From positions 434,001 to 498,000 of the forward strand of contig JASNGC010000003.1 in NCBI GenBank assembly GCA_038659295.1: a DNA stretch of 64,000 nt. The letters run 5' to 3'. Positions 8,251 through 61,189 of the stretch are shown here, one piece after another. Made by a program: the position numbers and the translations under genes. The notes under the pieces were generated by a model that was not told where the DNA came from, did not search any database, and saw only the letters and a program-made list of their open reading frames with translations. Every line of letters begins with the position of its first letter. Positions within the stretch are counted from its first letter, which is position 1. The stretch is from Enterocytospora artemiae (taxonomy: Eukaryota > Microsporidia).

Positions 8251-9232
8251 ATGATCTTAACAACCCACACCCAATTATCAAACAGCTTGACCTACCGCCT
8301 AACTTACCTTTATCCACATATAGTATTCTATTTATCAAAGTCTGGAATGCTGTTTCAAACCATCTCAAAAGAGATAAAGGAATCCGCCGAGCAGTCTGTC
8401 ACATACTTTGATCTATATGACCTGTTCCTGGCAGGAATACTCAACACGCTAGTGTTTATATTGTATATACAGTTCATAATACAACAGAAACCGTTTTCTG
8501 AGTATTTGGGAAATGCCATGAGCTTGATGACTGCAGGCTTTATCTTCTATATTGAGCACACTATAGCAACCTTAGGCGGGAAAATCTTCAGGACCTCCAC
8601 CATTATTCTTATCTGCCTATGCATAGCCGAGGTGATATATAGCAGATGGACAATAGATTTAATCCGAAGTAAAATTAATGCATACCTGCTGAAAAAACTG
8701 GGTGTGAGCATAGCTATAAATAGTAGGTGCGATACCATATTTAATTTAAGAGGCCTTCTATATTAGATCTGCAATTCAGTCATTTTCAATATCGAGTGTA
8801 GTTTTGCCAATAGTTGCACTGATAATCTCCATCCACAATGAAACTAATCCTTGGTCTCTTTATACATTTTTCATACTGGGCTTGACTATTGTGTCCTGTA
8901 TAAACAACTTGGGCATATTTACTCAGATGCATGATGAGAATGTTACACGGAGAAAATGTGTTTTAGTGCTGCAGGCCGTCAAGATATTTGCTGTAAACTA
9001 CTCGATCATATTATTTACGGGAAGAGATTTTGATGGTACATACATAAAGGGTTGTATTCCAATTCCCCCGGATATCACTCTCTTACATGCCATCAGAAGA
9101 TTTCTAAATATCATAATTTTGGTTGAGTCTACAGCGTTTTTCATTTTTCTATTCCTCGATCTCTTTTACTTTGGCTCTGGAATGAAAGATTACTTTTCTC
9201 TTAAAAAGTTTAAAAATAGAATTGTTCTATAA
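8251..9232 (+). CDS. Multi-span membrane protein, tandem paralogue A (one intron)
   Basis: Exon 1 is 8251-8722 and exon 2 is 8751-9232; joining them gives 317 residues in one frame. GCCCCA precedes the ATG. Without splicing the frame stops at 8766; with splicing it reads ...AINKAFYIRSAIQSFS..., matching the neighbouring paralogue (INEAFIIRSAISSFS). Six to eight hydrophobic spans are visible. Shared motifs with paralogue B include PFSEYLGN, IRSKINAYLLKKLGVS, TQMHDENVTRRK, AIRRFLNIIILVES and a C-terminal FGSGMKDYFSLKKFKNRI. There is no cleavable signal peptide. I do not recognise the family; the conserved polar loops suggest a transporter- or receptor-like role, but this is a guess. AATAAA overlaps the stop. 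Confidence 0.85.
8723..8750 (+). other. Spliceosomal micro-intron, 28 nt
   Basis: The donor is GTAGGT and the acceptor TTTAATTTAAG, with the branch-point A inside TTTAAT a few bases upstream of the terminal AG. Removing it restores one frame and yields protein conserved with the paralogue across the junction (phase 1). Its 3' half is nearly identical to the intron at 10308-10334. The donor differs from the canonical GTAAGT at one position. Confidence 0.85.
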
Positions 9233-9811: not shown

Positions 9812-10816
9812 ATGTTAACAATTATACTCAACGATATCAGCCCCCACCAAATGGTCCTAAAGACATATAATGATACCACAAAGAATATGATCTTTCTAAT
9901 CCCACATATCATATTCTTTATAGCAAGAAGTGGACTTCTATACATGGGGATTCTAACCAGACCCAACAACATCCTAATACCCACCCCGTTCTTCGATTCT
10001 GTCGAATTATTTATGCTTGGAACTCTGAACTCAATCAATCTGATGTTATATCTACAGGTAATTCTGCATCAACAACTTTTTTCGGAGTATTTGGCAGTTT
10101 TCCTGAACGTTGTTAATGCCATTTATATTCCGTATATCGAATATGTCCGATCGGATCTGGGAGAGTCGATATTTAATATATACATGACTATGCTTGCTGT
10201 GGCGTTTTTTGGGGAATGTATATACAGTATAATTGCTATGCGTCTGATCAGAGCCGAAATAAACAACTATTTGTTTAAGAGGCTAGGAGTAAGCACTATC
10301 ATAAACGGTAAGTGATACGGTATTTTAATTTAAGAGGCTTTCATTATCAGATCTGCAATCAGTTCATTTTCCATATTAAACTTCCTACTGCCAATACTAT
10401 TCATGATTGTTGCTGTCTACAATGACTATGACTACATATCTTTCTATACTTTGTGGGGATTTGGGGTAACTATATTGTCATACATCATCAATCTGGGTGT
10501 GTATGTCCAAATGCATGATGAGAATGAATCAAGACGAAAGATTATTCTGATACTCTTGATGATTAAGATTGTGGCCACAGATTGGTCGATCATTTATTTC
10601 ACTGGGAAAGATATTAACGGACGCACAATAGACGGATGCCATCCAGCTTCCCACGATGTTATTCTTCTTTATGTGATAAGAAGATTCTTGAATGTTATAA
10701 TTCTGGTTCAATCAGTAGCCTTTTTTCTTTATTTAATTCTTGATTTCTTCCACTTCGGTTCTGGAATGAAAGAATATTTTACATTTAAAAAGTTTAAAAA
10801 CAGAATCACTCTTTAA
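9812..10816 (+). CDS. Multi-span membrane protein, tandem paralogue B (one intron)
   Basis: Exon 1 is 9812-10307 and exon 2 is 10335-10816; the join gives 325 residues. Exon 2 is 482 nt, the same length as in paralogue A, and the intron sits at the same codon and phase. The unspliced frame would end at a TGA inside the intron. The protein shares the spans and motifs of paralogue A (LFSEYLAV, IRAEINNYLFKRLGVS, QMHDENESRRK, IRRFLNVIILVQS, FGSGMKEYFTFKKFKNRI) with a longer, divergent N-terminus. This indicates an old duplication with constraint on loops and C-terminus. No C-run precedes the ATG, unlike paralogue A. AATAAA overlaps the stop. Function unknown. Confidence 0.85.
10308..10334 (+). 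other. Spliceosomal micro-intron, 27 nt
   Basis: It has the canonical donor GTAAGT and acceptor TTTTAATTTAAG. Excision restores the frame and gives a junction conserved with paralogue A. The donor is followed directly by an in-frame TGA, so retention would truncate the protein at about 167 residues. Confidence 0.9.
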
Positions 10817-52307: not shown

Positions 52308-53318
52308 ATGCCTGAAATTGGACCACATCTACTCTGGCTATTACTTTGTTTTCAATGTTTGTTAGCCCTTGTGTTTATGAAAAATGATGCAGTCCTCTTA
52401 CAAGCAATATGCGATTCTACAAAAAATGCCGATAAGAATGTGATAGTTCACTCCAAAACAGATTTGATTGGCCTAACTAAGGGCAAGGTAGTTCCTCGAT
52501 GCATTGAGCTGTATTCGGATTTGTCTGAGGCAGAAGCCGGTGATTTGAGGATGTACTGTAAAAAGAAACTTGAGAATGTAGGGATGGTTGAAAAGATCTG
52601 GAAGGCATTATCTAATTTCTGCCTCTGTAGTAATGACAGTGCTGAAGTTGAAGAGGAAATGATGCTTGAGAGTTCGAAAGATGAGGTATATAGTAAAGCA
52701 AAGGAGCTGTATTTGACTAGTGTGCTTGCTTGCTTTAGGGGTAATGAAAAAAAGGTTTTGTCCGAAGTTATTGATCTGATTCGCTATCTAAATGAGAAAG
52801 GTACTACAACAGTTTCAATATTTCGAAGAGAGGGAAGGAAGGTTGAGTCGAGAAATATAATTAATCAGATACTTCTGGGAAAGCAGGTGGATTTCGAAAG
52901 ATATGGAATATATCCCTTGGCAAGCGGATTGAAATACTATATTAGAGAGATTTTGGATGGGCTGTTTGATAAAGCTTCATTGGACAAGCTGTATGACGCA
53001 GTTCAGGGTGGAAATAGATCGGAGATCAGAAGGCTTTCCAAACTGTTGGTGTTTTCGCTAAATCCATCGGTTAGGGAATGTTTCATGGAGTTGAGGGAAT
53101 TACTGCAGAATATTGCACAGAACTCTCATATCAATCAGATGACATGGGATTCGTTAACCAACATACTATCCCTTACTACCATGCCATGTGGTATATTTAC
53201 CGATGCGGCTTCTGCATTTGTGTGCATAGATATGTTTAAAGCAATAATGAAGGTGGAGGCCAACAAACTAGAGGATTTGAGAAGTGTCGTAATTAGACAG
53301 GTCAATGGAAAAGAATGA
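52308..53318 (+). CDS. RhoGAP-domain protein with N-terminal signal peptide
   Basis: The first 23 residues (MPEIGPHLLWLLLCFQCLLALVF) are a strong signal peptide. Residues about 135-310 read as RhoGAP: TVSIFRREGRKVESRNIINQ with the arginine finger Arg173, then LASGLKYYIREILDGLFDKA, RRLSKLLVFSLNPSVRECFM, ELRELLQNIAQNSHINQMTW (conserved Asn276) and ILSLTTMP. These parallel GIFR(R)SG, LLKLFLRELPEPLL, LP..N...L..L, V..N...NKM and FGP. No other membrane span is present in the 336 residues, so the protein is probably secreted or lumenal, which is odd for a regulator of cytosolic GTPases. A host-directed role is inference. Confidence 0.8.
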   Translation: MPEIGPHLLWLLLCFQCLLALVFMKNDAVLLQAICDSTKNADKNVIVHSKTDLIGLTKGKVVPRCIELYSDLSEAEAGDLRMYCKKKLENVGMVEKIWKALSNFCLCSNDSAEVEEEMMLESSKDEVYSKAKELYLTSVLACFRGNEKKVLSEVIDLIRYLNEKGTTTVSIFRREGRKVESRNIINQILLGKQVDFERYGIYPLASGLKYYIREILDGLFDKASLDKLYDAVQGGNRSEIRRLSKLLVFSLNPSVRECFMELRELLQNIAQNSHINQMTWDSLTNILSLTTMPCGIFTDAASAFVCIDMFKAIMKVEANKLEDLRSVVIRQVNGKE

Positions 53319-58919: not shown

Positions 58920-59780
58920 CTAAATCAACTGGGAAATATTCAACACTCGTCTGTTTGCTTTCAAATTATTTCGGAATGCATCTTCTTCAGTAGATAAACC
59001 CATTTGCAAAAAAATATCATTACAGACCTTATCACATTCTTCAGGGTTAAAGGTTCCTTTTTCAATAATAATATCAGCTTGGTTTTTGTTTGAGTAGACC
59101 CATCTTTGGGTAGCTGGCCACAATTTCGTTTCAAATCTCTCAGTAATCTTATCCTTTAAAATGGTGTCGGTTATATCATCCAGGCAGTTAAACTTTCTTT
59201 CCTTCATGTCCCTGGCAATCCTCATAGAGCGCATTAATTCTTTTGGTAACAGCATTTGGATTTTCAGTGCTGAGAAGGTAGGTATGCTGTAATCATTTAC
59301 AATGTATTCATTCACAAGAGCCTTGCTGGAATTTGTAGCATCCAGTTCTGAAAGATTAAACACCTCCTTATTGAACAGATTAAACGAGTAAATTCCCTCC
59401 AGAATTATCACCTTTGGAAAAACATTTTTCACAAATTTTTTTTCGGAAATTTTCGTAATAAAGCTATACCTGTAATCTGGAACCACCACATCATGTCTGG
59501 CATAGGCATTCAGGGTTTCTTTGATAGCATCCCAATTAAGAGCTGCAGGGTTGTCGAAATCATATCTGGAGAGATTCTCAAGCGTGTACTCCAGAGGAAA
59601 TGTCTTGTAGAAGCTATCGCAACCAATTAGGACGCAAGAAATGTGGTTGTTCATAAGTTTCTGATGGATATAAGCAGCAAGAGTACTTTTCCCGGAGGAA
59701 GAACATCCCTGAATAATGATGATCTTGATTGGCATGGTTTGTACATGCAACTGATTCATAGTCTCTTCAAAATTGTCCAT
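58920..59780 (-). CDS. Uridine kinase-like P-loop kinase, cytosolic paralogue
   Basis: A 286-residue nucleoside kinase. P-loop GCSSSGKST (25-33), the acidic CDSFYKTF block, RYDFDNPAALNW (compare FNFDHPDAFD), VVVPDYRYSF, KVIILEGIYSFN and RSMRIARDMKERKF give the whole uridine-kinase layout, with substrate-binding Asp and Tyr residues in place. It phosphorylates uridine and cytidine in salvage. There is no signal peptide. The C-terminus (ATQRWVYSN...IIIEKGTFNPEEC) is shared with the next gene. The stop TAG is part of TTAGAATAAAG. ATGs at residues 8 and 16 are alternatives; the start is not marked by a C-run. Confidence 0.88.
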   Translation of the reverse strand: MDNFEETMNQLHVQTMPIKIIIIQGCSSSGKSTLAAYIHQKLMNNHISCVLIGCDSFYKTFPLEYTLENLSRYDFDNPAALNWDAIKETLNAYARHDVVVPDYRYSFITKISEKKFVKNVFPKVIILEGIYSFNLFNKEVFNLSELDATNSSKALVNEYIVNDYSIPTFSALKIQMLLPKELMRSMRIARDMKERKFNCLDDITDTILKDKITERFETKLWPATQRWVYSNKNQADIIIEKGTFNPEECDKVCNDIFLQMGLSTEEDAFRNNLKANRRVLNISQLI

Positions 59781-60250
59781 GGCGTTTAGGGTAAATTGAC
59801 ACTAGGAAGAATTAATATGAATTTCATAAATTAATTTAATTATGCTTAAAACAAAGAGGCAATGAAAACTTGAATATTAACTGTAACAACCAAGATCCAC
59901 AATAATTCTAGCATTTTTTGATTTAGATTAAATTAAAAAACTTGTAATAGCTACGAGAAAATATCACAAAATATTTAGATCCTATGCTGTTAAGGACAGA
60001 CTGCAGTTGTGGCCAAGTTTAGTAATAAAATCTAATTAGTTTTAATCATATCTGAAATTTATTGTAAAATGAGAATGATGTCATTACAAAACCACATCAT
60101 AAGTCTTCATCCAACAGGATATTAAAAAAGTCATGCTTTAAACAGCAAATGGCTTTGTTAAGGGAATAAAAATTGAAAATCCAACTATTATTGCTGCCAA
60201 AAGCAGACAATTTGATAGGTAATATATTGTTGTTGATATTGAATTTATTG
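59781..60250. other. Spacer between tandem uridine kinase genes
   Basis: About 470 bases, strongly AT-rich. A 67-codon minus frame at 60097-60300 starts at GTG within the upstream gene's end and is not credible. Confidence 0.45.
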
Positions 60251-61189
60251 CTAAGACAATCTCTTAATATAGGCCCCAAATGTTTGAGTTTTATTGGCAC
60301 TCAAAAAATCTAGGATTTGTTGCGTTTTCTCCTCACATTTCTCAATATCAAAAGTGCCTCCAACAATCTCCACGTAAGGTTCGTTGCTGATGGGAGAGTA
60401 AATCCACTTTTCAGTGGCAGGCCAGACGTACCTTTCAATCTGCTCTTTTATCCTCTGTTCTATTAGGTCTTCGGATAATGAATTTTCATACTCCACCTTC
60501 CTATGTTTTTTGTCTCTTGCTAGTCTTATCTTAGTCAGTTGTTCCTTGGATATCTTCACTAGAAGCTTTAGCCTTGGGTCGATTATAAAATTGGACAGAT
60601 CAAGAAGATTATTTGGTATATAATCACGTGAAATTACTTTTTCCGAGTCAAATGGATCCAACTCCAAGTGGTTAATCACCATATGATTAAATATATTAAA
60701 GCCAAATATACCTTCTACAATTATTATCTCTGGAAAGACATTTTTGATAATCGTCTTTGAGTTGACTTGGGAGGCAAAGTCATACTGATGACAGGGCACA
60801 TACGAGCACCCATCTGAATAGGCCTTCAAAGTATCACGCAGAGCATACCAATCTATAGCTGCTGGACTATCAAAGTTGTATTTCTGGGTGTTCTCAAGGG
60901 TCAGCTCAAAATTAGATGAATGATAGTAACTATCTATTCTGATCACCACTGTTTTTATTTTCGATTCTGTCAGCCTTTCGTAAAAGTAGTTGGATAGAGT
61001 GGTTTTTCCAGATGCAGAGCATCCCTGGATTAGAATTGTCTTAATAGGCTTGCTGTCTGTTTTCCCAAAGAAAAATAGAACTAATAGTGATAAAAACTTG
61101 AACATTAGGAATATTTTTTTGTTTTTGAAAAATTGAAAATAAATCAAAGCTAAAAAACTAATTAAGTAGAAGGTCGACCATTTGCTCAT
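60251..61189 (-). CDS. Uridine kinase-like paralogue with N-terminal signal peptide
   Basis: The kinase fold is complete: P-loop GCSASGKTT, RIDSYYHSSNFELTLENTQK, YNFDSPAAIDW, YVPCHQYDFAS, IIIVEGIFGFNIF and LAKIRLARD-like TKIRLARDKKHRKV, ending with WPATEKWIYS...IVGGTFDIEKCEE. It is about as similar to its downstream neighbour as expected for old tandem paralogues. The difference is the N-terminus. From the ATG at 61189 a 28-residue hydrophobic segment precedes Met29 (61105), where MFKFLSLLVLFFFGKTDSKP is a clean signal peptide; either start predicts entry into the secretory pathway. A secreted nucleoside kinase would be remarkable. Confidence 0.85.
   Translation of the reverse strand: MSKWSTFYLISFLALIYFQFFKNKKIFLMFKFLSLLVLFFFGKTDSKPIKTILIQGCSASGKTTLSNYFYERLTESKIKTVVIRIDSYYHSSNFELTLENTQKYNFDSPAAIDWYALRDTLKAYSDGCSYVPCHQYDFASQVNSKTIIKNVFPEIIIVEGIFGFNIFNHMVINHLELDPFDSEKVISRDYIPNNLLDLSNFIIDPRLKLLVKISKEQLTKIRLARDKKHRKVEYENSLSEDLIEQRIKEQIERYVWPATEKWIYSPISNEPYVEIVGGTFDIEKCEEKTQQILDFLSANKTQTFGAYIKRLS

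Follow-up and report, generated by a model that had tools for sequence, protein, structure and literature searches.

Two neighboring minus-strand genes in a 64,000-nucleotide stretch of the genome of the microsporidium Enterocytospora artemiae (contig JASNGC010000003.1, positions 434,001 to 498,000; hereafter the window) encode kinases resembling uridine-cytidine kinase (UCK), and one of them, P0001, carries a predicted signal peptide directly before its kinase domain, while the other, P0002, has no leader. A nucleoside kinase on the secretory route is plausible, and further leadered sequences among its relatives speak for it. On balance, we lean towards the following explanation. A UCK-like nucleoside kinase gene would have been duplicated; one branch, now represented by two genes (window positions 60251-61105 and a gene on contig C4), would have gained an N-terminal signal peptide, and the other would have stayed cytosolic. 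The leadered enzymes would enter the endoplasmic reticulum (ER) and be released or held at the outer face of the parasite, where they would use ATP to convert a nucleoside, probably uridine and/or cytidine, to a charged monophosphate close to the parasite; ordinary salvage inside it would fall to the leaderless enzyme. The cleavage, export, substrate and benefit of the leadered kinase are what we infer.

A model's note based on the letters of this stretch (the sequence-only reading) had described the pair, at this position, as uridine kinases with intact P-loops, one secreted and one cytosolic. Both adjacent open reading frames (ORFs) indeed match the profile PF00485 (49.3 bits for P0001 and 51.9 bits for P0002, cut-off 22) and have an intact Walker A motif. 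P0001, with its favored start at Met29, occupies 60251..61105, and its frame is open to 61189 (Met1, 312 amino acids); the leaderless P0002 (286 amino acids) occupies 58920..59780, and a spacer of 470 bp (59781..60250) separates the two. The P-loops are GCSASGKT in P0001 (residues 56-63 of the 312-residue frame, 61001..61024, minus strand) and GCSSSGKS in P0002 (residues 25-32, 59685..59708, minus strand), and the two proteins share 40% identity across 245 aligned positions. The assembly comprises 3.015 Mb in five contigs. Its small-subunit rRNA covers the whole Rfam microsporidian model with 1179 bits; since this model also matches nine of 14 prokaryote controls, what counts is the complete coverage and the size of the score.

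The predicted structure of the leadered enzyme shows the UCK fold including the nucleoside-binding hairpin (strands 102-109 and 114-121); UCK2 and a Thermus enzyme tie among its best structural matches, and the structural alignment with 6n53 has 25% identity. According to passages of PMC9163393, Asp62 of UCK2 is catalytic, Asp84 and Arg166 bind ribose, and Glu135 binds magnesium. The P-loop lysine and the counterparts of Asp62 (Asp86 in P0001, codon at 60932..60934, minus strand), Asp84 and Arg166 are kept in all 45 aligned rows. The Glu135 counterpart is present in P0001, P0002 and P0012, the gene on contig C4, and that of Tyr112 is kept in these three genes as well as in the relatives P0022 and P0025. 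Human UCK2, a cytosolic enzyme, and P0001 are thus alike in the P-loop, in the counterparts of Asp62, Asp84, Arg166 and Glu135 and in the hairpin, whereas in P0001 and P0012 His117 is replaced and a leader is added.

The predicted signal peptide of P0001 comprises 18 residues from Met29 (61052..61105, minus strand), with the best predicted cleavage after Ser18, between GKTDS and KPI, and a weight-matrix score of 8.9. The leader quoted in the sequence-only reading, MFKFLSLLVLFFFG, corresponds to residues 29-42 of the P0001 frame; that is, a hydrophobic leader does precede the kinase domain, but it begins at Met29 and not at the first Met of the frame. Its score is attained by 12 of 2000 shuffles of the P0001 N-terminus and by one of 117 sampled ORFs of at least 200 amino acids (from the window and 20 sampled 10-kb pieces; 118 were found and one overlapping ORF was dropped). 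A score of at least 5 together with a hydropathy of at least 2 is seen from the first ATG in six of these 117 ORFs, and in eight if every Met down to codon 60 is admitted as a start. The P0001 leader is hence more than chance would give. In the structure model the first 20 residues have a mean pLDDT of about 66. The top leader score in the sample (12.7) belongs to another ORF of the window, at 52308-53318 on the plus strand (336 amino acids).

Above Met29, the P0001 frame has 28 in-frame codons (Met1-Leu28; 61106..61189, minus strand; 24% G+C), which code for another hydrophobic stretch. To choose between the two starts, we used a start-context score covering 40 bases before the ATG and the codon after it, derived from 117 ORF starts and 895 internal Mets; its leave-one-out area under the curve is 0.90, and starts have C-rich bases just before the ATG. 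Met29 scores 3.23 and outranks 99.8% of internal Mets; Met1, at -2.40, outranks 63% of them and stands at the 9th percentile of starts. Since the positives are all first ATGs, Met1 of P0001 among them, the score is biased against Met29. In the NDK gene, used as a control, the canonical Met55 was called (2.06) over Met1 (-3.22), the upstream frame there also being hydrophobic, and in P0012 the first Met was called (5.72) and not Met9 (-2.93). The score is imperfect: 34 of the 117 starts score no higher than the value that 95% of internal Mets stay below. A start of P0001 at Met1 is disfavored by its context, and the Met1-Leu28 stretch is more likely 5' untranslated than coding. The frame has Mets only at positions 1, 29 and 170, and the P-loop begins at 56; therefore no ATG start can yield the complete kinase without a hydrophobic N-terminus. 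A start below the leader, which the sequence-only reading had named as fatal to its claim, is ruled out for ATG starts.

The profile search identified four PF00485 genes in this genome, so the set exceeds the neighboring pair. On contig C4 lies P0012, which shares 63% identity with P0001 and begins with a hydrophobic leader of unlike sequence, MFGLLALIMQFSLIVTDTPIK; the first in-frame upstream stop lies at -27. The fourth gene, P0013, was rejected as UCK-like, being divergent and missing the nucleoside hairpin, with a borderline leader score (3.3). Protein searches, which scored about 8000 candidates sharing most words, yielded at least 42 relatives in a high-scoring group set apart from bacterial, fungal and animal matches; one search listed 120 of 550 matches, and several relatives from one search were absent among the matches listed in the other. 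Eleven of the 42 listed relatives are named and come from nine microsporidian species, and the others were placed by a 100/100 branch in a 58-row tree, which parts the microsporidian clade from 12 bacterial, archaeal, fungal, animal and other eukaryote rows. A scan of viral contigs gave 56 pattern matches, none of which was confirmed as a relative. One relative, P0131 of Trachipleistophora hominis, is a PF00485 kinase labeled 'Armadillo/beta-Catenin/plakoglobin' in its source record and apparently misnamed.

Four of the 46 scored sequences (42 relatives and the four genes of this genome) have a leader score of at least 5 ahead of the domain: P0001, P0012, P0022 from Enteropsectra breve and P0025 from a metagenome contig. 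The P0022 score is matched by 29 of 2000 shuffles of its own N-terminus. E. breve also has the leaderless P0031, so that a related microsporidium harbors at least one copy of each kind, the parallel which the sequence-only reading had suggested looking for. The leader scores of P0130 (6.3), P0028 (4.4) and P0140 (4.4) are artefacts with the best cut inside the P-loop strand, and the leaders of P0132 (4.8) and P0137 (3.3) were judged unconvincing. In a 38-row tree built without P0013, P0028, P0031, P0032, P0132, P0139, P0140 and P0143, P0001 groups with P0012 (100/100), P0002 groups with P0014 (100/99), a protein of a sister species with 87% identity to P0002, and the two pairs come together with 91/86; the leader changes three times by parsimony and at least twice by starred branches. 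In the 58-row tree, where the long branch of P0013 may be misplaced, the order of the P0001/P0012 pair and the P0002 pair is not settled. The patchy distribution of leaders, found in this genome, in E. breve and on one metagenome contig, suggests repeated recruitment and not a one-off event.

Several observations weigh against an exported uridine or cytidine kinase. The leader is a prediction from a weight matrix. No clear leader is seen in 42 of the 46 scored sequences, among them those of T. hominis, Vavraia, Spraguea and Nosema granulosis, as well as those of Gurleya, Astathelohania, Binucleata and Nucleospora. When the N-termini of P0012 and P0025 are shuffled 2000 times, 303 and 241 of the shuffles, respectively, match the observed score, so by this test only P0001 and P0022 stand out among the leadered four, and leadered rows are not significantly clustered on the 38-row tree (59 of 500 label shuffles give a count of leader changes no higher). 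At the position of the base-reading His117 of UCK2, whose change to Tyr abolishes uridine activity according to passages of PMC9163393, P0001 has Gln, P0012 and P0002 have Lys, and His is found in one of 45 rows; because of this replacement we class P0001 and P0002 as UCK-like and not as proven UCKs. Both fall well below the cut-offs of two bacterial-type NCBIfam profiles: 71.3 and 81.8 bits against 180 for PRK05480, and 60.6 and 76.1 bits against 220.3 for udk. Finally, UTP is present at about 600 uM in a mean mammalian cell (PMC5113988), which makes the gain from an external kinase not obvious.

The leadered enzyme could instead be exported but act on a substrate other than uridine or cytidine, or have lost its activity and serve as a binding protein. 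We consider this improbable: the P-loop lysine and the three UCK2 counterparts are invariant across the alignment, Tyr112 is retained in five leadered and leaderless genes, and the model has a hairpin where the nucleoside-binding loop of UCK lies. Slightly more improbable still is a hydrophobic N-terminus that arose by chance from A+T-rich DNA, the protein being cytosolic and the genes ordinary salvage isozymes. T-rich DNA codes for Phe, Leu and Ile, and the NDK gene (L042:1336-1944, plus strand), whose frame continues above the start into codons for a false hydrophobic stretch, is a warning that leader-like sequence can arise in this genome from A+T-rich DNA upstream of a gene; the eight sampled ORFs with a leader-like score from some Met, and the ease with which shuffles equal the P0012 and P0025 scores, fit this view. 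Yet P0001 has no later Met before its P-loop, and its stretch is translated if the kinase is whole, and P0012 and two other relatives carry leaders of different sequence.

An uncleaved signal anchor would still place the kinase across the membrane, exposed on the lumenal or outer side but tied to the ER or the plasma membrane. No stop interrupts the frame up to Met1, a start there would give two hydrophobic segments and make anchoring likely, and the first structure model of the Met1 form has two N-terminal helices, at low confidence. The cleavage site has acceptable residues (Thr at -3, Ser at -1), with Lys and Asp in the c-region, and hexokinases 2 and 3 of T. hominis are concentrated in the surface coat of the parasite (PMC6460350). 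We regard an anchor as rather unlikely, however, given the poor context of Met1, the Met29 leader, in which no uncharged run exceeds 11 residues (short for an anchor), and the upstream stop of P0012, which leaves this paralogue no room for a comparable extension. Export of the leadered branch with a cytosolic branch kept remains the explanation that we prefer.

A leadered UCK-like kinase fits the pattern of the secreted hexokinases of T. hominis and Antonospora locustae. PMC6460350 reports signal peptides on three of four T. hominis hexokinases, with hexokinases 2 and 3 concentrated in the extracellular coat; the A. locustae enzyme is secreted into infected cells (PMC3976299), and Nosema bombycis is reported to have a secreted hexokinase as well (PMC6152459). 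In these species and in Nematocida, a metabolite kinase with a signal peptide likewise stands beside a leaderless copy, and both features, the predicted signal peptide directly before the kinase domain in P0001 and the leaderless paralogue P0002, are present here. The differences are the family, the probable substrate (nucleoside versus sugar) and the fact that export of P0001 is a prediction. Leaderless microsporidian uridine kinases, such as that of T. hominis (PMC4256464), belong to the same clade as P0001 but have no clear leader. The likeness to hexokinase drawn by the sequence-only reading extends to this genome, which has two hexokinases, only one of them with a leader-like N-terminus. 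P0229 (L010:865-2235, minus strand) shows a leader when translated from Met38 (5.6) and none from Met1 (-2.8), and the context score leaves its start unsettled (Met1 1.13, Met38 -0.49); P0230 (L011:871-2319, plus strand) has no leader, and its start is not supported by the context score (-1.63). Possibly a third leadered/leaderless kinase pair of the genome is formed by two adenylate-kinase-family genes. P0227 (252-residue frame, L040:1291-2049, plus strand) has a strongly hydrophobic N-terminus (hydropathy 3.13) and a good Met1 context, and P0228 (L041:1414-1971, minus strand) has no hydrophobic N-terminus; since the matrix score of P0227 is only 3.3, its N-terminus is perhaps an anchor.

Microsporidia have no de novo pyrimidine synthesis, and the tested T. 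hominis nucleotide transporters carried purines only, pyrimidine acquisition being called unclear (PMC5113988). Kinase-based uridine salvage fits the gene content of this genome: NDK, thymidine kinase, thymidylate kinase and CTP synthase each gave a single gene, and UPRTase gave none in a search that matched 14 of 14 controls, 12 of them above the cut-off. Sections of PMC4256464 and PMC6699826 report a uridine kinase gene (EC 2.7.1.48) in T. hominis and none in E. cuniculi and N. ceranae, and describe most microsporidia as apparently lacking kinases for nucleoside use; with relatives in nine named species, such genes would seem less rare in microsporidia than published. Four NTT-family nucleotide transporter genes were found by profile search, three of them clustered on contig C1 at about 134-140 kb. 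MFS_1 gave five matching stretches across four frames, two of which are above the cut-off. The nucleoside transporter profile PF01733 had no match in the genome, but the controls likewise had none. The window also contains two similar-looking small hydrophobic ORFs, perhaps paralogues, at 8251-8766 and 9812-10315 on the plus strand. Import of the product by the NTTs, as proposed by the sequence-only reading, has published evidence from T. hominis against it: the transporter genes are present, but in the T. hominis assays NTTs took up no CTP, TTP or UTP (PMC4256464, in part) and MFS transporters took up no uridine, CTP or UTP (PMC6699826, in part). As far as these sections go, the assays concern tri- and diphosphates, not monophosphates, and other species may differ.

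In summary, the leadered/leaderless UCK-like pair and the likeness to hexokinase of the earlier interpretation hold, with E. breve as a parallel, and the T. hominis assays speak against its import step. In the titles, abstract openings and passages that our literature search covered, none described a microsporidian uridine kinase or other nucleoside kinase as secreted. P0229 and P0227 also look leadered and each has a leaderless paralogue (P0230 and P0228); together with P0001 they may form an extracellular kinase set that converts host nucleosides to mono- and diphosphates at the parasite surface and feeds a hypothetical pyrimidine nucleotide importer. We hold this doubtful, but if true, such a set would explain where some microsporidia get their pyrimidines. 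Part of the parasite's nucleotide chemistry may take place beyond its cell boundary, a point of interest for the microsporidian pyrimidine supply: a nucleoside kinase outside the parasite, if confirmed, would be a concrete part of the pyrimidine answer and would extend the strategy of secreted hexokinase to nucleotide metabolism.
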